A DNA stretch of 12,920 nt from Ferruginibacter sp. (GTDB taxonomy: Bacteria; Bacteroidota; Bacteroidia; Chitinophagales; Chitinophagaceae). Positions 1 through 12,869 of the stretch are shown in pieces. Within the stretch, counting starts at the first letter, position 1, and each line of letters starts with the position of its first letter. Position numbers and translations under genes: made by a program. Under the pieces are notes generated by a model that saw only the letters and a list, made by a program, of their open reading frames with translations, was not told the origin of the DNA and made no database searches. The DNA is taken from NCBI GenBank assembly GCA_025362765.1, contig JANYFI010000636.1:1-12920 (forward strand), given 5' to 3'.

Positions 1-1067
1 CCAGTGTACGCATCCAGTGTTAATGTCGATTTGCCAATTTTTCCCCGCTTAGTAGTAACAATTACAACACCATTCGCACCTTGCAGACCATAAATCGCTG
101 CTGCAGATGCATCTTTTAAAACATCAATTGATTCAATATCATTCGCAACAATATTTGTTAATCCTTGCTTAGACATCACCCCATCAATAACATACAATGG
201 ATTGGTGTTATTCAAACTTCCTATCCCTCTTATGGTTATTTTAGTAGAGCCACCAGGTGTACCATCGTTAGATGTTACATTTACCCCAGCCAATTTACCC
301 TGGATTGCCTGATCTGCGCCTGTTACAGCCATTGCTTTTATATCAGCCCCTTTTACAGAACCAATAGCGCTTGATACATCTTTTCTAGACTGTGTTCCGT
401 AACCCACTACTACAATATCTGAAAGATCATTTTTTGCAGTTTTCAAACTTACAGCAAAATCAGTTTTTCCTTTGATTGGAATTTCAACCGCTTGCTTACC
501 CACGTAAGAAATAACCAGCGTACCAGAAACTTCATTTGTTTCGAGGTTAAAAATACCCGCTTTATTAGTTGTAGTAGACTCAGTAGTATTTTTTATTTTA
601 ACAGTAACGCCTTCAAGTGGTTCACCGTTTTCATCAACTACTTTACCCCTAATCTCTGTTGTTGTTACCAGAAGCGGCTGTGGGGCCTTGACAACTTCTT
701 CTGTCACACCCAGCTCTTTTTGTTTTATTATAATTTGCTTTTCATCAATTACATAGGTGTAAGGCTGATCCTTAAAACAAACGTCCAGTATGGTTTTCAA
801 TGAACCATCCATGATATCCAACGTTATTTTTTTGGAATTTTTTAATAATTTTTCGTTGTAAAAAAACCGGTAGTCACTTTGTTTTTCAATCTCCTGAAAA
901 ACTTTTTCAATGGAAGCTTTCTTTAAGGAAATATTAATGTTTTGAGAGTAGCCGCCTGCACTTACCTGCAGAAAACTGACGAGCAAAAGAAAAGCAGTAA
1001 GTTTCATCATTAACAATTTTTGGTGGAGTCCGTTTCCCCGATGGACAAAAAATTCCTTTTTTTGCAT
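1..1067 (-). CDS. SusC/RagA-family TonB-dependent receptor with STN domain, N-terminal part (cut by left edge)
   Basis: Outer-membrane receptor that would import a ligand, probably an oligosaccharide, with a partner SusD protein and energy from TonB. The reverse strand is open from an ATG at 1067 to the window edge, giving 355 codons. A signal peptide has its hydrophobic core at about residues 22-37 (LTAFLLLVSFLQVSA). An STN signalling domain follows at about 44-115, a carboxypeptidase-regulatory-like beta domain at 138-208, the family signature VVVGYGTQ at 219-226, and the plug with YVIDG and VLKDASAAAIYG at 292-327. The beta barrel lies outside the window. The start at 1067 is preferred over the double Met at residues 20-21, because a polar 19-residue lead such as MQKKEFFVHRGNG is usual in this family. 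It follows the FecR-like gene by 148 bp, and the STN domain fits signalling to that anti-sigma factor. Substrate unknown. Confidence 0.93.
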   Translation of the reverse strand, partial: MQKKEFFVHRGNGLHQKLLMMKLTAFLLLVSFLQVSAGGYSQNINISLKKASIEKVFQEIEKQSDYRFFYNEKLLKNSKKITLDIMDGSLKTILDVCFKDQPYTYVIDEKQIIIKQKELGVTEEVVKAPQPLLVTTTEIRGKVVDENGEPLEGVTVKIKNTTESTTTNKAGIFNLETNEVSGTLVISYVGKQAVEIPIKGKTDFAVSLKTAKNDLSDIVVVGYGTQSRKDVSSAIGSVKGADIKAMAVTGADQAIQGKLAGVNVTSNDGTPGGSTKITIRGIGSLNNTNPLYVIDGVMSKQGLTNIVANDIESIDVLKDASAAAIYGLQGANGVVIVTTKRGKIGKSTLTLDAYT

Positions 1068-1123
1068 ACTTTTGAGTTTTAGGTTTTTTAATAAACAGTC
1101 TGGCGCAATTGTAACAATTAAAC

Positions 1124-1177
1124 TAACTTAAACGCTACCGGAGGTGTCTTCAGCACTTTCGGTTTTTATTTAAGTTA
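1124..1177 (-). promoter_or_regulatory. Two-tier stem-loop in the leader of the module 1 susC-like gene
   Basis: Read on the coding (minus) strand, TAACTTAAA (1177-1169) pairs perfectly with TTTAAGTTA (1132-1124). Inside lies an internal loop of 5 nt on one side and 4 nt on the other. The inner arms ACCGAAAGTG (1163-1154) and CACCTCCGGT (1146-1137) then pair with two A-C mismatches, closing with GTG/CAC around a 7-nt loop (CTGAAGA). The structure ends 56 nt before the susC start. No T-run follows on the coding strand, so it does not look like a simple terminator. The same architecture recurs at 9356-9407. Function is inferred: mRNA processing, stabilisation or attenuation between fecR and susC. 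Confidence 0.6.
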
Positions 1178-1215: not shown

Positions 1216-2427
1216 TTATAATGATACTATAAGTTTTTTCCCGTTCAATTTAAAATGGACATCACTGTATTCAAGCCATTTTAAAAGCCTGGATAAATTG
1301 ACCGACATCGGTATTATTCCTGTAAACCTATTTTCTGTGCTAGGCTTATTTAAGTACACAACTTTAATATCATACCACCTTGCCACCTGCCGCAGTACTG
1401 AACTAACATCTGCACTATTAAATTTAAAGTTGCCATTTTTCCACGCCACCGTCTCCTCAAGGTCTGTATCCACCTGCACTTTGATAATGCCACTTCTATC
1501 AATCTTAGCCTGGTTACCTGGTACTAATAAAATTTTTTTTGAGCCGGTAGAAATATTGATTGACCCTTCCAGTAAAGTAGTTTTTATTTCGTCCTCATCG
1601 GTATAAGCCTTTATATTAAAATGCGTACCCAAAACCCTTACTTCCGCTCCATTATAAATTTTAACGATAAAGGGTTTACTGGCATCTTTGGCAACTTCAA
1701 AATAAGATTCACCCGTAATAGTTACCCTTCTTTCCTTTTCTAAAAAGGCGGTGGGATAGTGAATGGAGGAGGATGCATTTAACCAAACTCTACTTCCATC
1801 GGGGAGTGTTAACTGGTACTGTCCACCTACCGGTGTACTCATGGTATTATAAACAGTTTCGATATTGCCTAAAGTACTGGCAGTATATTGAACCTGTCCA
1901 TTGGCGAGCTTTATTACTTTTGTGCCTCCCTGTTTGCTTAGTAAGCCATTAGATGCACTATCCAAAATTATCTGAGATCCGTCGGATAAAGTAAGGAGCG
2001 CTTTCCGGCCGCCCGGCATTATATCATTTTTATTAGCAGGAACATTTACTATACCATTTGCTACAGGCGCAATAGTAGTTGGGGTAAGTTTAAAATATCC
2101 GATTGAAAAAATTATTAATATGGATGCTGCTACCGTTATCCTTTTTAACCAGATAACTTTAATATTTATTGGTATAACATTATCTGCGGACGAAATAATC
2201 TTTTTAGAAGATAAAGGAGTGAAAACAGCGGCAATAATTTTTTCTGATTCAGCATTAGAGAGTGTGTCCAATGCCTGGTGCTTGTGCCATTGGTATTCTA
2301 ATAACTGTAATATTTTTTCATCATTTGCATGTTCGGTTACCCATTGCGAGAGCTCCTGAAGTTCAACTTCATTGATTGTTTTATCAAAATAAAGTCCTAT
2401 CAAAATTTGCAACCTTTCTGGTAACAT
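1216..2427 (-). CDS. FecR-like anti-sigma factor with DUF4974 C-terminus (module 1)
   Basis: Inner-membrane anti-sigma factor expected to hold the upstream ECF sigma factor and release it when the receptor's STN domain signals. Residues below count from an ATG at 2460 (414 aa). The N-terminal cytoplasmic part covers about 12-100. One membrane helix lies at about 107-123 (ITVAASILIIFSIGYF). The FecR domain covers 203-302, with LPDGSRVWLNASSSIHYPTAF and GESYFEVA. DUF4974 covers 343-412, with the typical FKFNSADVSSVLRQVARWYD start. I choose the second ATG at 2427 (403 aa, MLPERLQIL). Its upstream sequence (TAAAATATT, then ATTGC just before ATGTTA) matches that before the other fecR-like gene, whose protein begins with a similar MLSSKERIYYLL. 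Gene order sigma, anti-sigma, receptor is the standard Bacteroidota arrangement. Confidence 0.93.
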   Translation of the reverse strand: MLPERLQILIGLYFDKTINEVELQELSQWVTEHANDEKILQLLEYQWHKHQALDTLSNAESEKIIAAVFTPLSSKKIISSADNVIPINIKVIWLKRITVAASILIIFSIGYFKLTPTTIAPVANGIVNVPANKNDIMPGGRKALLTLSDGSQIILDSASNGLLSKQGGTKVIKLANGQVQYTASTLGNIETVYNTMSTPVGGQYQLTLPDGSRVWLNASSSIHYPTAFLEKERRVTITGESYFEVAKDASKPFIVKIYNGAEVRVLGTHFNIKAYTDEDEIKTTLLEGSINISTGSKKILLVPGNQAKIDRSGIIKVQVDTDLEETVAWKNGNFKFNSADVSSVLRQVARWYDIKVVYLNKPSTENRFTGIIPMSVNLSRLLKWLEYSDVHFKLNGKKLIVSL

Positions 2428-2441
2428 AAGCAATCGTCTAT

Positions 2442-2453
2442 TAAAATATTTTA
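2442..2453. promoter_or_regulatory. AT-only palindrome just upstream of the module 1 fecR-like start
   Basis: TAAAATATTTTA is a perfect 12-bp palindrome ending 14 nt before the preferred fecR start at 2427. A related 20-bp palindrome sits 15 nt before the other fecR-like gene. It may be a translation-initiation element, a small hairpin or an operator. Such AT palindromes can also arise by chance in AT-rich DNA. Confidence 0.3.
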
Positions 2454-2675
2454 GCAGCATTTACATTTACAATTAAAAAAACTTTAATAATAAATGTCAT
2501 CACAACTATTGTATAAGACGATTAGTGAATGATTAAGGACTAGTTGAAAATAAAATATTTTTGAAATAAAAAAATGGTCGGAAAGAGAAAATAAGTACTT
2601 GTACAGGAGGTTATAGATTGAAAAGCGAAAACAAGCAACAGACAAATAATAACTAACATTAAATTGGCAAAGCAG

Positions 2676-3275
2676 TTAAATAAAAACATTACAGCATACA
2701 ATCAATAGCAGCATTTCATTTAATTCCATATCATTTTTTAAAAATGCTTTGATGGTTTTTAATGCCTGTACCATGTGGTTCTTTACAGTACTGGTAGAGA
2801 GGTTTAGTTGTTGGGCAATTTCTTCATGCTTAAGCCCCTGCTCTCTGCTTAACCTGTATACCAGACATTGTTTCGGAGGTAGCTTTTTAATCATTTCATT
2901 CAATTTCGTTTCCAATAATTTAAATTCCAGATTTGCTTCAATTGAGTCATCTATCAATGCAACAACTGGATTCTTTTTAAGAATACTGTACTTCGACATG
3001 CCGCGTTTAAAGCTATCAAGCGCCCGATTTTGAGCAGCCCTAAAAATATAACTACTGAAATTATCAATGGAAGATAGATTGGCTCTGTTAATCCAAAGTT
3101 TCATAAAGATATCTTGCACAAGATCCAACGATTCCTCCTCTGACTTTGTTATCCTTAGTAAAAAGCTATACAGTTTATTATTGTATGAATTGAACATTTC
3201 AATAAATGCAGCTTCATTATCATTTGCAGCAAGACGCAATAGTTCTTTTTCGGTATGTAAGTTTATATAATGCAA
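2676..3275 (-). CDS. ECF sigma-70 factor, FecI-like (module 1)
   Basis: Alternative sigma factor that should direct RNA polymerase to the adjacent receptor operon once freed by the FecR-like protein. At 199 aa it has the family's usual size. Region 2 lies at about 21-90, with the core-binding stretch LDLVQDIFMKLWINR (50-64). Region 4 lies at about 121-180, with KLPPKQCLVYRLSREQGLKHEEIA and the helix-turn-helix LNLSTSTVKNHMVQAL. The protein ends in a hydrophobic tail, MLLLIVCCNVFI. The reading frame has no ATG between an upstream stop near 3330 and residue 27, which lies inside region 2. TTG at 3275 is therefore the best start. The FecR-like gene begins 248 bp downstream, a rather long gap. 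Confidence 0.92.
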   Translation of the reverse strand: MHYINLHTEKELLRLAANDNEAAFIEMFNSYNNKLYSFLLRITKSEEESLDLVQDIFMKLWINRANLSSIDNFSSYIFRAAQNRALDSFKRGMSKYSILKKNPVVALIDDSIEANLEFKLLETKLNEMIKKLPPKQCLVYRLSREQGLKHEEIAQQLNLSTSTVKNHMVQALKTIKAFLKNDMELNEMLLLIVCCNVFI

Positions 3276-3780: not shown

Positions 3781-4665
3781 ATGTCTTTTAAAGCAAAGTT
3801 TCTTTTAATAGATTATCCAATGAAAAGTTCTTTCAATATTAAAATTGACAGAGCGTTGGAAACACCTTTTCATTTTCATCCCGAGATAGAGTTGCTTTAC
3901 AGCATCAGAGGCCGAGGCACTGATTATATTGGAAATAGTATAGAAACGATCGAAGAAGGAGAACTGTTGCTTTATGGTGAAAATGTACCACACACCCGTT
4001 TAAAAGACGAAAGTTTTTACGAGCGATATCCAGCCGAAACACCTGAGGCAATTGTAATACAATTTCGAAAAGATTTCTTAGGATCTAACTTTTTTACTTA
4101 CAAAGAGTTAGACCATATTGGTGAGTTAATAAGCCGTTCAGCTAAAGGACTTCGATTTTTTGGAGCTACCCGGGAAAATGTTGGCAAAAAATTATTAAAA
4201 ATTAGTAAAAAAAAGGGGTTGGCTGCTTTACTTGCATTGCTTTCCACCCTTGATACATTGGCAAAATCTGAAGAATATACTTTTATTAACAAAATTGACA
4301 ACTCTGCTAACCTTGATAATGAAACACTCAATCGAATTAAAAACGTATTTCAATATACATTAGATAATTTTAGGGAACCCATTTCTTTAGAATATGTATC
4401 AGCCTTAGCATTTCTTTCCCCAACGGCATTTTGCCGTTTTTTTAAAGGCCATACCAGAAAAACTTATCATGAATATTTAACTGAAGTTAGGATTGACAAT
4501 GCTTGTAAATTATTAAGATCAGGCAATTATGATGTGAAGACCGCATCTTTTGAATCAGGTTTTACCAATACCCCTAACTTTATAAAACAATTTAAAAAAG
4601 TTACACAGATGATGCCAAGTGAGTATCGCCATACTTTTAACTCGAAGATTATAAAACCAAAATAA
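3781..4665 (+). CDS. AraC-family transcriptional regulator with cupin-type sensor domain
   Basis: DNA-binding regulator of 294 aa, the usual length for one-component AraC proteins. The N-terminal cupin-like sensor covers about 1-115, with the histidine motif HFHPE at 31-35 and a further His at 71 (NVPHTRL). These are typical of sugar- or metabolite-sensing members. The C-terminal pair of helix-turn-helix units covers about 185-284. The first includes SLEYVSALAFLSPTAFCRFFK. The second includes SGFTNTPNFIKQFKKVTQMMPSEYR, a slightly divergent form of the family signature. The ATG at 3781 has no Shine-Dalgarno, as expected here. It diverges from module 1 and could add carbon-source control to one of the modules or to itself, but no target can be proven from this window. 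Confidence 0.92.
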   Translation: MSFKAKFLLIDYPMKSSFNIKIDRALETPFHFHPEIELLYSIRGRGTDYIGNSIETIEEGELLLYGENVPHTRLKDESFYERYPAETPEAIVIQFRKDFLGSNFFTYKELDHIGELISRSAKGLRFFGATRENVGKKLLKISKKKGLAALLALLSTLDTLAKSEEYTFINKIDNSANLDNETLNRIKNVFQYTLDNFREPISLEYVSALAFLSPTAFCRFFKGHTRKTYHEYLTEVRIDNACKLLRSGNYDVKTASFESGFTNTPNFIKQFKKVTQMMPSEYRHTFNSKIIKPK

Positions 4666-4909: not shown

Positions 4910-5347
4910 TTATTCCAGAATAAAATTCTCATCACTATTAGGGCCTTGTTTGTGATGATTCAAATATTCCTGTATCATTTCATCTGTGATATTTCCTGTA
5001 CTCCATGCTGCATAACCTATACCCCACAAATGACCTCCCCAATAACGTCTCTTTAATTCTGTATATTCTACCAACAAAAGCTTCGCACTTCTACCCTTTA
5101 AACGCTTCATTATGTCACTTATACTCAACTTCGGAGGATAACTAAGATCCAAGTGGACATGATCTTTACTCACAACTCCCTTCAGTATTTGAATATCCAA
5201 ACTATCGCAGGTTTGACGAATTAAATCCCTGCAACGAACTTGAATATCACCACGTAATACCTCATAACGATATTTAGTACTCCACACCAAATGAACATGT
5301 AATTGATGAGTAGTATGACTCCCTTTTCGGATATTATGCATCCTCAA
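4910..5347 (-). CDS. tnpA: IS200/IS605-family transposase TnpA (Y1 HUH)
   Basis: Single-strand DNA transposase that cuts and rejoins hairpin-containing ends through a tyrosine-DNA intermediate. It is complete at 145 aa, within the usual 130-155. The HUH metal-binding motif is HVH at residues 63-65 (KDHVHLDL), and the catalytic Tyr is Y128 in DEMIQEYLNHH. The N-terminal family signature HQLHVHLVWSTKYRYEVL is present. HLWGIGYAAWSTGNIT precedes the catalytic helix. There is no tnpB nearby, so this is an IS200-like single-gene element. Short palindromes lie on both sides (4813-4901 and 5367-5398). Exact element ends and cleavage sites could not be fixed. All catalytic residues are intact, so it may be active. 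Confidence 0.95.
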   Translation of the reverse strand: MRMHNIRKGSHTTHQLHVHLVWSTKYRYEVLRGDIQVRCRDLIRQTCDSLDIQILKGVVSKDHVHLDLSYPPKLSISDIMKRLKGRSAKLLLVEYTELKRRYWGGHLWGIGYAAWSTGNITDEMIQEYLNHHKQGPNSDENFILE

Positions 5348-7478: not shown

Positions 7479-8066
7479 TTGCCTGACTGCTCACAATATG
7501 ATGATAAAAGCTTGCTTCTGGAAATTGCTGCCGGAGACGAACGTGCGTTTAGAAAATTATTTGAACTATACAAGGAAAGATTTTACTCAGTTGCACTGAA
7601 GATGACCCGATCCAATGAAGTGGCTGAGGATATTGTGCAAGATGTGTTCATGTATATTTGGAGCAAGCGTGAAAATATTATAGCTATTGAGAATCCATCT
7701 TCGTATTTTTTTACTTGTGTGTACCGAAAAGTATATCAGTATTATCGCAAAATAGCACTGGAAAAAAAATTATTAGAGAACATATCATCCCAAAACGAAT
7801 TTATAAATACTACAGATAAAAGGGTATTGGATCGTGAAAATAAACATTTAATATCCCAGGCAGTAGCGAAACTTCCACCGAAACAACAACTGGTCTTCAA
7901 ACTTAGCAAATGGGAAGAGCTTAGCAGGGAAGAAATTGCACGCCAATTACAAATATCTCCCCATACAGTCAAGAATCATTTGACTGATGCCATTAAATTT
8001 ATCCGCACTTTCTTACGCGACTCCACCCTAACCTTGCTGGTGATATATTCGTTTTTCAAAAAATAA
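7479..8066 (+). CDS. ECF sigma-70 factor, FecI-like (module 2)
   Basis: Alternative sigma factor of 195 aa expected to drive the downstream receptor operon. Region 2 lies at about 21-92, with AEDIVQDVFMYIWSKREN (49-66) as the core-binding helix. Region 4 lies at about 122-180, with KLPPKQQLVFKLSKWEELSREEIA and helix-turn-helix LQISPHTVKNHLTDAI. The C-terminus is hydrophobic (LTLLVIYSFFKK), like the tail of the module 1 sigma. No ATG occurs in frame between the TAA at 7461 and residue 42, so TTG at 7479 is the likely start (PDCSQYDDKSLLLEIAAGDE follows). The FecR-like gene starts 79 bp downstream, implying co-transcription. Confidence 0.93.
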   Translation: MPDCSQYDDKSLLLEIAAGDERAFRKLFELYKERFYSVALKMTRSNEVAEDIVQDVFMYIWSKRENIIAIENPSSYFFTCVYRKVYQYYRKIALEKKLLENISSQNEFINTTDKRVLDRENKHLISQAVAKLPPKQQLVFKLSKWEELSREEIARQLQISPHTVKNHLTDAIKFIRTFLRDSTLTLLVIYSFFKK

Positions 8067-8145: not shown

Positions 8146-9339
8146 ATGTTATCATCTAAAGAGAGGATATATTATTTGTTGGAGGCTTATATTTCCAGGC
8201 AGGCAACAGCCACCGAGGAAAGCGAATTCATGGACTGGATTCTTGAAGCTGGGGAAGAGTCTGCTTTAAAAGATTATGTACTTGATATCTGGAACCAATA
8301 TAAAACTGAAGAGGATCTATCGTATGTAAATTGGGACCAAATATATTTGCGTGCAATGCAGCAGCCGGTTGTTTCTATTGACCCAGGAATAAAGAAAATA
8401 AAATGGGTTAGATTCGCCGCTGCCGTAACAGGTTTGGTTGTTCTTGCTGCAGGTGCTTATCTCTACTTTACTCCCCGTTCTCAGCAGGCAATCGCAACAA
8501 TTGACATTAAACAGAAAGATATTGCGCCACCTTCAGATAATAAGGCAATACTAACCCTGGCTAATGGAACAAAAATACAATTAGACAGCAGTGGAAATGG
8601 AACGCTGGCCGTGCAAGGCAGTATACAGATTATCAAACAAGCCACCGGAGAAATCAGTTATTCCGGAACTTCTGCAGGAGAAGTTAGTTACAATACGCTT
8701 AACGTACCAGCAGGAAGCAAACCCATAAGCCTCACGCTATCTGATGGCAGCAAAGTTTGGATAAATGTAGGATCAAGCCTCACTTATCCAACTGCATTTA
8801 CAGGCAAGGAAAGAAAAGTAAAAATTACTGGAGAGGCTTATTTTGAAGTAGCGCACAAAGCCAGCATACCTTTCATTGTACAACATGATGAGTTAACTGT
8901 AAGCGTTTTAGGAACACATTTTAACGTGAATACGTACAAAGACGAAAGTACTGAACGAATAACATTGCTGGAAGGTTCGGTAAAAGTTAACCAGAATGCC
9001 TTGTCGGAATTATTAAAACCTGGCCAACAGGCCCGCATTAGTAACAATGGCAATAGGGCTATTAAAATATCCAATGATGTGAATATGGATGAGGTGATGG
9101 CCTGGAAGAACGGTAAATTTATGTTTGGTGACAATACAGACCTCGGTACTATCATGCGCCAGATTACCCGATGGTACAATGTGGAGGTAGTATATGAAGA
9201 ACAGATTAACCAGCATTTTTGGGGATCTATCTCAAAAGATGTGAACGTATCACAAGTACTAAAAATACTGGAAGCCACAGGTGGTGTAAAATTTAAAATA
9301 GAAGGGAATAAAATAATGGTGATGCCCACCTCCCACTAA
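8146..9339 (+). CDS. FecR-like anti-sigma factor with DUF4974 C-terminus (module 2)
   Basis: Membrane anti-sigma factor of 397 aa, expected to sequester the sigma factor encoded just upstream and to be contacted in the periplasm by the receptor's STN domain. The cytoplasmic N-terminus covers about 1-85. The membrane helix lies at about 89-108 (RFAAAVTGLVVLAAGAYLYF). The FecR domain covers 182-280, with LSDGSKVWINVGSSLTYPTAF, GEAYFEVAH and VLGTHFNVNTY. DUF4974 covers 323-393, with KFMFGDNTDLGTIMRQITRWY. The usual GGQYQL near the FecR domain start is replaced by SKPISL. The ATG at 8146 is clear. The susC-like gene follows after 128 bp that contain a structured leader. Confidence 0.95.
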   Translation: MLSSKERIYYLLEAYISRQATATEESEFMDWILEAGEESALKDYVLDIWNQYKTEEDLSYVNWDQIYLRAMQQPVVSIDPGIKKIKWVRFAAAVTGLVVLAAGAYLYFTPRSQQAIATIDIKQKDIAPPSDNKAILTLANGTKIQLDSSGNGTLAVQGSIQIIKQATGEISYSGTSAGEVSYNTLNVPAGSKPISLTLSDGSKVWINVGSSLTYPTAFTGKERKVKITGEAYFEVAHKASIPFIVQHDELTVSVLGTHFNVNTYKDESTERITLLEGSVKVNQNALSELLKPGQQARISNNGNRAIKISNDVNMDEVMAWKNGKFMFGDNTDLGTIMRQITRWYNVEVVYEEQINQHFWGSISKDVNVSQVLKILEATGGVKFKIEGNKIMVMPTSH

Positions 9340-9355
9340 ATATTTTTTAAATAAA

Positions 9356-9407
9356 CTGAACTAAATAGCCGGGAAGTGTTTGCTCCACAACCCGGCGAAA
9401 AGTTCAG
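9356..9407 (+). promoter_or_regulatory. Two-tier stem-loop in the leader of the module 2 susC-like gene
   Basis: The outer stem is CTGAACT (9356-9362) with AGTTCAG (9401-9407). An internal loop of 5 nt (AAATA) and 4 nt (GAAA) follows. The inner stem is GCCGGG (9368-9373) with CCCGGC (9391-9396), then an AA/AA internal loop and GTG/CAC closing a 7-nt loop (TTTGCTC, 9379-9385). It ends 60 nt before the susC ATG and begins 16 nt after the fecR stop. The layout matches the structure at 1124-1177 although the stem sequences differ. No T-run follows, so it is not an obvious terminator. Confidence 0.65.
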
Positions 9408-9467
9408 GTTAACTATATAATAAATCGCTTAAGACTACTATTTCATCAAACTAAACCAAACAAAGCT

Positions 9468-12400
9468 ATGGATTTTAAAGTTCATTATTACTGTTGGCCT
9501 TCCTTGCCGAAAGTATCAAAACAAACGCTGAACATTATGAAGCTTATTGCCCTCATATTATTTGCAGCAGGCCTCCAAGTAAGTGCCCGTGGCTATTCGC
9601 AGATCACGCTTTCTGAAACCAACACACCGCTGGAAAAAGTATTTCAAAAAATAAAGCAACAGAGTGGTTACGATTTCGTATCTACGTATGAAACGTTGAA
9701 AGATGCGGGAAATGTAACAGTTAATGTGCAGAATGTATCTCTGCAAAAAGCGCTTAACGAATGTTTACAGGGCAAGTCGCTTACTTATGTTATTATAGGT
9801 AAAACGGTAGTAGTAAAGCCCAACGAAAAAAAATCCTATAATTCAAGTGCCCTTCTTTTACCCGAAAAGCTACTACCGCCACCTGTTGAAATTCATGGAA
9901 CAGTGTTGAATGAACAGGGGCAACCGTTACAGAATGTATCGGTGTTAGTAGCTGGCACCAAGATAGGGACCACTACTAATAAAGAAGGAAATTTTACACT
10001 CACCGTTCCTGATAATAAAAATGTGACCCTGGAAATTTCAAGCGTTTCATATATAACAAAAAAAGTAAGCCTTGGAAAACAGAGTGAGGTAAGTGTTGTT
10101 TTACAAACAGACGTAGCAGGAATGAGCGATGTGGTGGTAGTAGGATATGGCACACAGAAAAGGTCATCAGTTACTGCTGCCATTTCTACTCTAAACGGAA
10201 AAGATGTGGCTTCCACTCCTATTGCGGATTTAAGTAATAGTTTAGGTGGACGGGTTCCCGGAGTAATCGTAAGGCAAAACAATGGTGAGCCTGGTAACGA
10301 CGGGTCAGATATTTATATCAGGGGAATTTCTTCAACAGGAGGCAATCAGCCCCTATTGATAGTGGATGGTATCCCGCGGAATTTTAAACAGCTTGACCCA
10401 AACTCCATCAAATCGTATTCGGTATTAAAAGATGCCGCCGCAGTAGCTCCCTATGGAGTTGCAGGTGCCAACGGTGTAATTCTTGTTACCACCAAAACTG
10501 GTAAAAACGGCGATCCATCAGTCACTTATGATGGATATGTGGGTTTTCAAAATCCAACCATATTTCCCAATTATGTTAGTGGATATCAATTTGGTGTATT
10601 GCAAAATGCTGCTGCAAAAGCGGCAGGAGTTTCCCTTCCTTATTCAGATATTGCACTTCAGAAATTAAAAGATCATTCCGATCCTGATGCCTATCCTGAT
10701 CCCAATGTTTATAGGGACTTGGTTAGAAAAAATACTGTTTTGACAAATCACCACATAGAAGTTTCAGGAGGTACAGAAAAAGTAAAGTACTATGGCAGCT
10801 TTGGATATCAACAGCAGAACGGTATGTGGCCCACTACCAGCGACAAAAAATACAATCTTGATTTTAATTTGAGTGTGCAAGCTACCCAATCAACAAAAAT
10901 TACTTTTGGAATAAATGGGAGATTGCAAAATTCCAATTATCCTTCTGTTCCCTCAGGTTTTGTTGACAACAGTCTTTTTGAGTTGATTGGTTATACTCAT
11001 ACTCAAAGTGGGCCGTTATATTTTAGTAACGGAATGCCCGGTACTTATATCACTTCAACCCTTTTAAAAAGCGGGTATAATAAAGTGAATACTACGTCCT
11101 TGTATTCACAAATTTCTATTGATCAGGACCTGTCGTTCATCCCCGGACTTAAGGCAAAGGTGACTGTTGCTTATGATCCAAACTTCCTTTCAAACAAAAT
11201 TTGGCATATCCCTGTTCACCTGGCCACTATCAACACATCCGTCCAGCCATATGTAATCACAGACGGAATATTTGGACAAACCCAATCGTCTCTAAACGAA
11301 AGCTTTACCCAGTCTTATCAGCTTACCACTCAAGCTTCACTAAACTATGCCAGATCATTTGGCAAGAGTAATATAAGTGCGTTGGCTTTGTTTGAAACAA
11401 AGGACAATGGTTCTAACAACCTGTCTGCTTCCAGAATGAATTATAACTTGGATATTGATGAAATTAGTTTAGGTAGTTCAAGTAATGCTGATATGACTAC
11501 CGCAGGAACATCCAGCAGGGCGAAGCAGATTGGACTGGTATATCGTACTACCTATGCCTATGAAAATAAATATTTGTTTGAAGCCAGCGGCAGATATGAT
11601 GGAAGCTATTATTTTGCGCCTAATGTAAGATTTGGATTTTTCCCTGCGTTTTCAGTTGGATGGCGTTTGTCTGAGGAGAATTTCATGAAAAATATACACT
11701 GGATTAATAATTTAAAGATCAGGGGATCTTACGGAGAGGTTGGTGCGCTTGCCGGAGCTCCATTTCAGTATTTAAGCACTTTTAGTGCCTTCGGCCCTGC
11801 CTATGTGCTTGGCGGACAAGCAGTTCAAGGTGTTGCTGAACGAAATGAAAGTAACCCCAATATTACCTGGGAACGTGCCAAAAAAAGTGATGTAGGTTTT
11901 GAGACAACCTTGTGGAATGGGTTATTGAATTTAGAAGTAGATTATTTTTATGAAAAGAGATCAAATATGCTCGTAAAACCTGATGTGCTGATTCCTGCGG
12001 AATACGGAATAGGGCTCAGCCAAGTAAATGCGGGAATTATGCAGAACCAGGGAATTGACCTCTCTATTGGTTCAAATTATCGTATCTCCAAAGACTTGCA
12101 AGTATCGCTAAGTGGTAATATTACTTACGCAAAGAATACGCTAGTAAAAGTATTTGAAACATCTACCACCTTTAATAATCCAAACAGAAGATTAACAGGT
12201 AAGTCACTTGGAACGCAATTTGGTTTCCATGCATTGGGCTTCTTCCAGGTGGGGGATTTTAATGGCGGGGTATTAAAAGCAGGAATAGCTTCACAACCAT
12301 GGGGTTCGGTACAGCCCGGTGATATCAGGTATGAAGATGTAAATAAAGATGGGAAAATTAATGAAGATGACTTTACGAAAATTGGAGACCCTAATGTACC

Positions 12401-12869
12401 ACAGCTTATCTACGGCATATCTCCCAGCGTGCACTATAAAGGGTTTGCGCTGGATATACTTCTTCAGGGAGCCGCAAAAGCGAATATTTATTTAGATAGA
12501 CAAAATGCCTGGGCATTTTATAATGGAATGTCAGCGCTGGTGGAGAATATGAATTATTGGACGCCTGAAAATCCCAATGCCTCTAATCCACGGATCACGT
12601 CCAGCCCAACTACAAACAATACACAAACCTCCTCCTTTTGGATGAAAAGCGGAAGTTATTTGAGATTGAAAAGTGCAACAGTATCCTACACGATTCCTAT
12701 ATCTGTTTTAAAAAAGATAGGTAGTCAAAATGCCAGGGTATTTGTTTCAGGGCAAAATATAATTACATTGACAAATTTGAAAAATTTTGATCCGGAAAGT
12801 ACAGGGCCGTACTCAAATCTTTATCCGCAGCAGAAAGTTATTTCAGTAGGATTAAATGTCACCTTTTAA
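9468..12869 (+). CDS. SusC/RagA-family TonB-dependent receptor with STN domain (complete)
   Basis: Outer-membrane transporter of 1133 aa, typical for SusC proteins that carry a signalling domain. A long polar N-terminal lead precedes the signal peptide core (LIALILFAAGLQVSA, 26-40). The STN domain covers about 46-117, the carboxypeptidase-regulatory-like domain 141-215, the signature DVVVVGYGTQ 221-230, and the plug about 233-344, with IYIRGISS, LLIVDGIPR and SVLKDAAAVAPYGVAGANGV. The beta barrel fills the rest and ends on a C-terminal Phe (VISVGLNVTF). A DVNKDGKINEDDF loop near 960 is common in this family. Met24 is an alternative start. A SusD-like gene begins 19 bp downstream. STN plus the upstream sigma/FecR pair indicates ligand-induced self-regulation. 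Substrate unknown; glycan uptake is likely from the family. Confidence 0.96.
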   Translation: MDFKVHYYCWPSLPKVSKQTLNIMKLIALILFAAGLQVSARGYSQITLSETNTPLEKVFQKIKQQSGYDFVSTYETLKDAGNVTVNVQNVSLQKALNECLQGKSLTYVIIGKTVVVKPNEKKSYNSSALLLPEKLLPPPVEIHGTVLNEQGQPLQNVSVLVAGTKIGTTTNKEGNFTLTVPDNKNVTLEISSVSYITKKVSLGKQSEVSVVLQTDVAGMSDVVVVGYGTQKRSSVTAAISTLNGKDVASTPIADLSNSLGGRVPGVIVRQNNGEPGNDGSDIYIRGISSTGGNQPLLIVDGIPRNFKQLDPNSIKSYSVLKDAAAVAPYGVAGANGVILVTTKTGKNGDPSVTYDGYVGFQNPTIFPNYVSGYQFGVLQNAAAKAAGVSLPYSDIALQKLKDHSDPDAYPDPNVYRDLVRKNTVLTNHHIEVSGGTEKVKYYGSFGYQQQNGMWPTTSDKKYNLDFNLSVQATQSTKITFGINGRLQNSNYPSVPSGFVDNSLFELIGYTHTQSGPLYFSNGMPGTYITSTLLKSGYNKVNTTSLYSQISIDQDLSFIPGLKAKVTVAYDPNFLSNKIWHIPVHLATINTSVQPYVITDGIFGQTQSSLNESFTQSYQLTTQASLNYARSFGKSNISALALFETKDNGSNNLSASRMNYNLDIDEISLGSSSNADMTTAGTSSRAKQIGLVYRTTYAYENKYLFEASGRYDGSYYFAPNVRFGFFPAFSVGWRLSEENFMKNIHWINNLKIRGSYGEVGALAGAPFQYLSTFSAFGPAYVLGGQAVQGVAERNESNPNITWERAKKSDVGFETTLWNGLLNLEVDYFYEKRSNMLVKPDVLIPAEYGIGLSQVNAGIMQNQGIDLSIGSNYRISKDLQVSLSGNITYAKNTLVKVFETSTTFNNPNRRLTGKSLGTQFGFHALGFFQVGDFNGGVLKAGIASQPWGSVQPGDIRYEDVNKDGKINEDDFTKIGDPNVPQLIYGISPSVHYKGFALDILLQGAAKANIYLDRQNAWAFYNGMSALVENMNYWTPENPNASNPRITSSPTTNNTQTSSFWMKSGSYLRLKSATVSYTIPISVLKKIGSQNARVFVSGQNIITLTNLKNFDPESTGPYSNLYPQQKVISVGLNVTF

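Follow-up and report, generated by a model that had tools for sequence, protein, structure and literature searches.

Each of the two modules in the window (the whole 12,920-nt stretch analysed here) very likely carries a gene for a DonS-like antisense RNA that represses susC, a computational prediction that draws on the folds and signals described below. In our reading, the main object of selection would be this antisense RNA gene with its terminator, and not a hairpin of the fecR-susC mRNA. The two-tier hairpins that the original prediction had placed between fecR and susC are real; what is conserved in them folds chiefly on the opposite strand. The structures, the strand that they serve, the terminator geometry, the promoter-like box and the concentration of these features at fecR-linked susC genes are all supported by computation.

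Both modules have the arrangement ECF sigma factor, fecR and susC with an STN domain, as judged from Pfam matches (Table 1). Between them lie an AraC-type regulator gene (3781-4665), the N-terminus of whose product has a weak cupin match, and an IS200-like transposase gene (4910-5347; Y1_Tnp). The source genome is 69% complete and has 11 FecR_C matches, which by their coordinates represent 8 fecR genes and 3 sites inside susC. In a side observation, the FecR_C profile (PF16344) weakly matches the N-terminal (STN) part of the adjoining susC at G000:C342:3198-3401, C797:429-626 and C676:698-895. These weak matches hint at a shared ancestry of the STN domain and the C-terminal part of FecR.

Table 1. 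Features of the two modules, with strand and basis of assignment.
Feature	Module	Position	Strand	Basis or remark
ECF sigma factor gene	2	7479..8066	+	Pfam Sigma70_r2, Sigma70_r4_2
fecR (anti-sigma)	2	8146..9339	+	Pfam FecR, FecR_C
susC with STN domain	2	9468..12869	+	Pfam STN, CarbopepD_reg_2, Plug; TIGR04056
Outer stem, 5' arm in mRNA	2	9356..9362	+	Fold
Outer stem, 3' arm in mRNA	2	9401..9407	+	Fold
Predicted antisense RNA, 97 nt	2	9360..9456	-	Predicted; -30.5 kcal/mol, z -4.4, 0/200 shuffles
5' stem-loop SL1 of antisense RNA	2	9402..9456	-	Fold; stem tested across 110 loci
Terminator-like hairpin SL2	2	9368..9396	-	Inner stem of the original prediction, opposite strand
U-rich tail UAUUUAGU	2	9360..9367	-	5 U of 8; weak U-tract
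Predicted -7 box TAGCTTTG (for TANNTTTG)	2	9461..9468	-	Overlaps susC start codon
susC 5' part with STN domain	1	1..1067	-	Pfam STN, Plug on 6-1067; runs off contig end
fecR (anti-sigma)	1	1216..2460	-	Pfam FecR, FecR_C
ECF sigma factor gene	1	2676..3275	-	Pfam Sigma70_r2, Sigma70_r4_2
Outer stem, 5' arm in mRNA	1	1169..1177	-	Fold
Outer stem, 3' arm in mRNA	1	1124..1132	-	Fold
Predicted antisense RNA, 93 nt	1	1079..1171	+	Predicted; -21.5 kcal/mol, z -3.0, 2/200 shuffles
5' stem-loop SL1 of antisense RNA	1	1079..1131	+	Fold; stem tested across 110 loci
Terminator hairpin SL2	1	1137..1163	+	11 unbroken pairs here; mismatches interrupt the mRNA-strand stem
U-tract UUUUAUUU of antisense RNA	1	1164..1171	+	Sequence, terminator scan
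Predicted -7 box TACTTTTG	1	1067..1074	+	Overlaps susC start codon (ATG 1067-1065, minus strand)

Folding of the mRNA strand confirmed both two-tier hairpins, at 9356-9407 (+) and at 1124-1177 (-). The hairpin of module 2 has the form described for it, with a 7-bp outer stem, a 5/4 internal loop, GCCGGG/CCCGGC, AA/AA, GUG/CAC and a 7-nt loop, and reaches -22.8 kcal/mol (z -5.8; none of 200 shuffles folds as well). For module 1 (-12.6 kcal/mol, z -2.7; equalled by 2 of 200 shuffles) the two-tier fold stands, but its outer stem has 10 bp instead of 9 and its internal loop is 4/3 instead of 5/4. The distances from hairpin to susC ATG, 60 and 56 nt, had been given correctly. As whole leaders on the sense strand, the 128 nt of module 2 have a z of -3.6 (0 of 200 shuffles as good) and the 146 nt of module 1 are unremarkable (z -0.5; 57 of 200). 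An Rfam scan of the window returned nothing over the gathering score, its three matches (E up to 5) all falling far below it, in agreement with the earlier supposition that the hairpin belongs to no named family.

For comparison, fecR-susC junctions were assembled from several sets. Named contigs gave 74 usable junctions of 60-360 nt out of the best 80 loci among the matches listed. From the matches listed for the class, 80 places were taken, of which 2 lacked a susC start, 21 were shorter than 60 nt or overlapping, 1 exceeded 360 nt and 56 were kept. Two families supplied 135 loci or places among the matches listed (120 extracted, 112 kept), and the genus together with the source genome supplied 26 junctions, 11 other FecR_C loci, most of them without a susC junction, having been excluded by hand. 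Removal of 52 near-duplicates reduced the pooled 268 junctions to 216 non-redundant ones. This sampling favours the best FecR matches among those listed, and the p-values given here ignore relatedness between loci. Junctions below 60 nt (21 of 78 in the class set) did not enter the comparison, so that the feature is absent in cases where the two genes touch. The hairpin search, run over 230 nt against mononucleotide shuffles, was strand-neutral: only Watson-Crick pairs counted, and every mismatch was penalised equally. As controls, we used 38 susC genes without fecR, from four genomes, and 190 other starts on the named contigs, these being first ATGs of open frames of at least 150 codons and not annotated genes.

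A strong hairpin was found in 177 of the 216 non-redundant junctions, compared with 296 of 2,160 shuffled sequences. The two outcomes that would have refuted the original prediction did not occur: the hairpin is conserved at other junctions, and shuffles fall short. At the 8 fecR-susC junctions of the source genome, a hairpin is seen by eye in all 8, scores at least 12 in 6 and has an A-run as well in 4; the start-codon box described below is present in 7.

Because a G.U wobble in one RNA appears as A.C in its complement, the type of mismatch inside a conserved stem reveals the strand on which the stem forms. Read on the susC strand, mismatches of the inner hairpin comprise 108 A.C and 10 G.T across the 216 junctions, compared with 77:41 in shuffles (p = 3e-11), and smaller junction sets are concordant (37:3 and 66:6). 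This excess of A.C indicates that the structure is maintained for the antisense RNA. Moreover, an A-run of at least 4 lies on the 5' side of the hairpin in 134 of the 177 cases, which on the antisense strand is a U-tract following the hairpin. By its geometry, the conserved hairpin is a predicted intrinsic terminator for antisense transcription. A sense-strand attenuator was also considered and rejected: just 7 of the 177 hairpins have a T-run of 4 behind them, making attenuation unlikely.

The two modules differ in how clearly they display these signs. In module 1, the segment 1133-1167 folds with -14.7 kcal/mol (z -4.8) as antisense RNA and with -5.8 (z -1.0) as sense RNA, and its SL2 is the first row of the terminator scan. 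In module 2, SL2 reaches -18.5 kcal/mol antisense versus -15.1 sense (sense z -3.4); strong but interrupted and with a weak U-tract, it was missed both by the terminator scan and by the covariance model R1 introduced below. The scan found 8 terminator-like sites over the whole window versus 8.6 in shuffles, which is no excess. A GC-rich hairpin with a U-tract on the antisense strand is present in relatives and in module 1.

These results bear on the interpretation offered originally, in which the two-tier hairpin works within the mRNA of fecR and susC, as a signal for processing, protection or attenuation, and sets an expression difference. The good sense fold of the module 2 inner hairpin speaks for it, but the same hairpin in module 1 is unremarkable as sense RNA, and the mismatches that predominate in the inner stem, as in a second stem taken up below, are A.C in the mRNA. 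Both stems wobble-pair in the antisense RNA only, and the U-tract is likewise confined to that strand. We therefore regard a purely sense-strand function as highly unlikely. Binding of a small RNA had been among the options named for setting expression, and that part may hold; what was missed is that the small RNA would be encoded at the site itself.

A hairpin of score 12 is unspecific when taken alone, as one is present in the 230 nt preceding 20 of the 38 susC genes that lack fecR. The hairpin combined with an A-run occurs at 88 of 137 fecR-susC junctions versus 3 of these 38. R1, a covariance model made from 57 antisense hairpins picked for pairing, was run against three whole genomes, scoring 150 of 458-1,303 first-look candidates per genome, and gave 16 hits with E no greater than 1. 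Twelve of these are antisense and just upstream of susC; 11 of the 12 are fecR-linked, and 7 of the 11 lie outside the training sequences, module 1 included (E 0.0012 when the window is searched, 0.37 for the whole genome). R1 recovers 5 of the 8 fecR-susC junctions of the source genome, module 2 not being among them. In the alignment of the 57 hairpins (A3), 10 of 10 pairs have changed on both sides (score 1.01 versus 0.27 shuffled), a count that gives no independent support for structure or strand because the hairpins had been chosen for pairing with A.C allowed.

Of the other four R1 hits, one has no clear role and three are sense-oriented and located shortly after the 3' end of a gene, from which it follows that the fold is that of an ordinary terminator. 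Together with the terminator geometry, those three would suit an element that only keeps stray antisense transcription of susC out of fecR, with no functional small RNA made. Such a roadblock leaves the second antisense-specific stem and the start-codon box unaccounted for, and it does not explain why hairpin plus A-run is so rare at susC genes without fecR, which have antisense strands too; we consider it very improbable.

Two further observations concern the hairpin. Sixty-five loci have 6-nt loops, most commonly TTGGCG, CGCTAA, CGGCAA and CTGCAA on the susC strand, and these are nonrandom: 42 of the 65 have G as their third base, and 43 have A as their fifth. An antisense terminator-like hairpin of the same kind is also seen at a susC gene that has no listed FecR_C match and adjoins a glycosidase-like gene (L268 and L435; G060:C2 near 148756).

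A second conserved pairing, the 5' stem, joins a leader segment near the start codon to a segment just past the hairpin. Over the 110 loci in which hairpin and ATG are 55-125 nt apart, the arms score 7.60 with their own partners versus 6.23 with those of other loci (0 of 1,000 permutations). Its A.C:G.T ratio is 75:8, compared with 1844:904 in mismatched controls (p = 1.9e-6); at the strictest threshold it is 10:2 (p = 0.35). The stretch from hairpin to start codon has a fold z of -2.15 as antisense RNA versus -0.83 as sense RNA, the antisense fold being better at 94 of the 110 loci (p = 8e-15). That the sense strand also beats shuffles somewhat is a point in favour of a structure in the mRNA, but the A.C mismatches of this stem count against it. 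The corresponding values are -0.22 antisense and -0.33 sense upstream of the 38 susC genes without fecR, and -0.01 and -0.18 at 140 fecR 3' ends; both controls show next to no structure and no significant strand asymmetry.

As folded, both antisense RNAs predicted in the window consist of a 5' stem-loop, a 5-nt linker, a terminator stem-loop and an 8-nt tail. For module 2, the 5' end was set 5 nt past the box and the 3' end was placed at the end of the U-rich stretch. Across the 80 loci that have both box and terminator, the predicted length has a median of 93.5 nt and lies within 78-128 nt in 76, a range that depends on predicted ends and is partly fixed by junction geometry and the 230-nt search.

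The start of susC is often overlapped by CAAANNTA, the opposite strand thus reading TANNTTTG, which is the -7 promoter consensus given for Bacteroidetes in the accessible text of PMC7366714. This box is present at 49 of the 74 named-contig junctions versus 4 of the 190 other gene starts, and overall it overlaps the susC start at 113 of the 216 junctions, in several ATG phases. Among the 38 susC genes without fecR it occurs in 3, each time at an offset other than the three commonest. (Positions -14 to +12 were covered for the 74-junction and 38-susC counts, -16 to +12 for the sets of 137 and 216.) Both window modules carry the predicted -7 box of a sigma-ABfr-type promoter; the TTTG of such promoters at about -33 was sought across the junctions and is not enriched. 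In Flavobacterium johnsoniae the -33 element is likewise not identifiable, according to the part of PMC7366714 available to us. Box and terminator occur together at 80 of the 216 junctions, the terminator alone at 54, the box alone at 33 and neither at 49; in a subset of 137 junctions, their association is only modest (Fisher p = 0.012).

The sequence CAAANNTA might instead be a translation-initiation signal of susC mRNAs and no antisense promoter, as would fit its place at the start codon, the A-rich and G-poor leader before it and the missing -33 box. A signal of that kind would be expected neither to be so rare at susC genes without fecR and at other starts nor to vary in its position: the offset of the ATG from the start of the box is 7 nt at 79 junctions, 3 nt at 23, 8 nt at 5, 12 nt at another 5 and 14 nt at 1. 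For these two reasons, a translation signal as the sole cause of the box was rejected, and we hold this explanation to be unlikely.

In the 3-nt-offset class (L055, L063, L066, L070, L092, L110 and others), SusC begins with Met-Tyr-Lys or similar, the second codon being TAT or TAC. This codon results from the overlap of the DNA box CAAATGTA with the start, so that a non-coding signal shapes the N-termini of proteins. Seen by eye, GGTTAAC directly follows the hairpin, with GACT some 20 nt further on, in the window (9407-9439) and at L009, L027 and L046; TTAACC is enriched in the stretch past the hairpin (28 of 120 loci versus 2.9 expected). The pair GGTTAAC...GACT is a candidate for, and possibly is, the sense ECF-sigma promoter of susC.

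The outer stem behaves differently from the two stems above. Tested at 114 of 134 loci, its own arms score 6.80 and arms combined between loci 5.91, a difference reached in 0 of 1,000 permutations, in keeping with the earlier claim that pairing is retained while sequence changes. A score of at least 8 is reached at 32 of the 114 loci versus 1,157 of 12,882 mismatched pairs. By set, own and other arms score 7.80 versus 6.05 on named contigs and 7.05 versus 5.95 in the genus; in the distant class set the stem is missing (5.81 versus 5.84, 24 loci). Its mismatches comprise 13 G.T and 10 A.C, while the G.T:A.C counts are 4:50 for the 5' stem (p = 8e-6) and 4:92 for the hairpin (p = 2e-8). Over rising score thresholds, G.T:A.C runs from 30:18 at 6 (p = 0.003) through 18:14 at 7 (p = 0.10) and 13:10 at 8 (p = 0.20) to 6:6 at 9 and 2:5 at 10. 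The compensation in this stem and its tilt to G.T at loose thresholds are what a signal in the mRNA would produce, but the tilt is lost at strict thresholds, and the absence from the class set speaks against the mRNA hairpin as a general explanation. Hence, the outer stem is statistically real and lacks the antisense signature; it probably forms in the mRNA.

The 3' arm of the outer stem falls in sequence that the 5' stem of the antisense RNA also uses, and the folds of the two strands would therefore differ and be partly exclusive. The outer stem would then be a second fold, probably in the mRNA, with one sequence giving two folds on two strands. It is conceivable, although we lean against it, that the DNA stretch is tuned for both: its wobble pairs would be positioned to allow two stem-loops in the antisense RNA, and in the mRNA, with A.C mismatches at those positions, the start side would stay open and the shared arm would be held in the outer stem by a segment upstream of the hairpin.

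The mechanism that we favour, an antisense RNA gene acting on susC, would proceed as follows. From the promoter-like -7 box on the susC start codon, transcription would run back through the susC leader and stop at about 95 nt, at the hairpin and U-tract. The RNA would fold into a 5' stem-loop and a terminator stem-loop and, being complementary to the susC leader, would most likely repress susC when the inducing glycan is absent. Repression could come about by pairing with the leader of the fecR-susC mRNA, leading to RNase attack or a block of translation. Collision of RNA polymerases may be an alternative or additional route, and is conceivable since the box sits on the susC start. That the RNA is produced, where it ends and that it represses are points that we infer from the features above.

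DonS and DonS-like PUL-associated cis-antisense RNAs of Bacteroides were reportedly described by Cao et al. in 2016. The predicted RNAs resemble them in lying opposite the 5' region of susC, with promoter-like box and terminator on that strand, and in the ECF sigma/anti-sigma pair that Pfam places with susC in both window modules. Their predicted ends give lengths of 97 and 93 nt, within the 78-128 nt stated for the antisense RNA family to which DonS belongs, a family whose members lie opposite susC and reduce its expression, DonS reducing that of its PUL (accessible text of PMC7366714). The same text counts ten more B. thetaiotaomicron RNAs oriented like DonS, some of which show anti-correlation with susC, while the available portion of PMC10994844 raises the DonS-like count to 32 and finds both correlation and anti-correlation with susC. 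Host-glycan PULs, that of DonS for example, are typically controlled by ECF sigma/anti-sigma pairs, as stated in an excerpt of PMC11697453. Unlike DonS, the present RNAs belong to genomes of Chitinophagaceae/Sphingobacteriaceae type and some other Bacteroidia, and are predicted from sequence alone. The present analysis describes the start-codon box, the pair of antisense stems and the sense stem that competes with them; the likeness to DonS refers to its published description.

Comparison can be extended to other known systems. Intrinsic (Rho-independent) terminators share the GC-rich hairpin followed by a U-tract, here on the antisense strand; in contrast to them, the present element lies before fecR-linked susC and not at a gene end, and at part of the loci inside a sense outer stem. 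In CopA/CopT and RNA I/RNA II, complementary strands both form stem-loops with imperfect stems. Here, by contrast, the strands appear to prefer different folds of one sequence, and plasmid control is not involved. The FopS and GibS sRNAs and RbpB of B. thetaiotaomicron are linked to carbohydrate use, and the sRNAs bear a 3' terminator hairpin (available part of PMC11697453); the predicted RNAs share the connection to carbohydrate use and the terminator hairpin at the 3' end. FopS members differ from them in having a conserved single-stranded seed and in being mostly intergenic (9 of 14, with 4 antisense, in the same excerpt), and no Rfam family matches the window. For one Flavobacterium, 287 antisense regions are given in the accessible part of PMC9723704, where the work on Bacteroides is also cited. 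The open-licence literature searched, in its accessible portions, yielded no account of antisense RNAs to susC from genera other than Bacteroides.

The wobble-asymmetry test lets genomes alone tell which strand an RNA structure serves. FecR-controlled SusC systems can abound, with up to 81 FecR_C matches per genome among those listed, some of them inside susC. If many of these loci carry an antisense RNA of their own, the repression mechanism of Bacteroides would extend well beyond that genus, as a locus-specific off switch. Should the tentative two-fold reading also hold, the read-through fecR-susC mRNA and the antisense RNA would be alternative users of one arm, in a general layer of locus-specific repressors on ECF sigma/FecR-controlled SusC systems across Bacteroidia.
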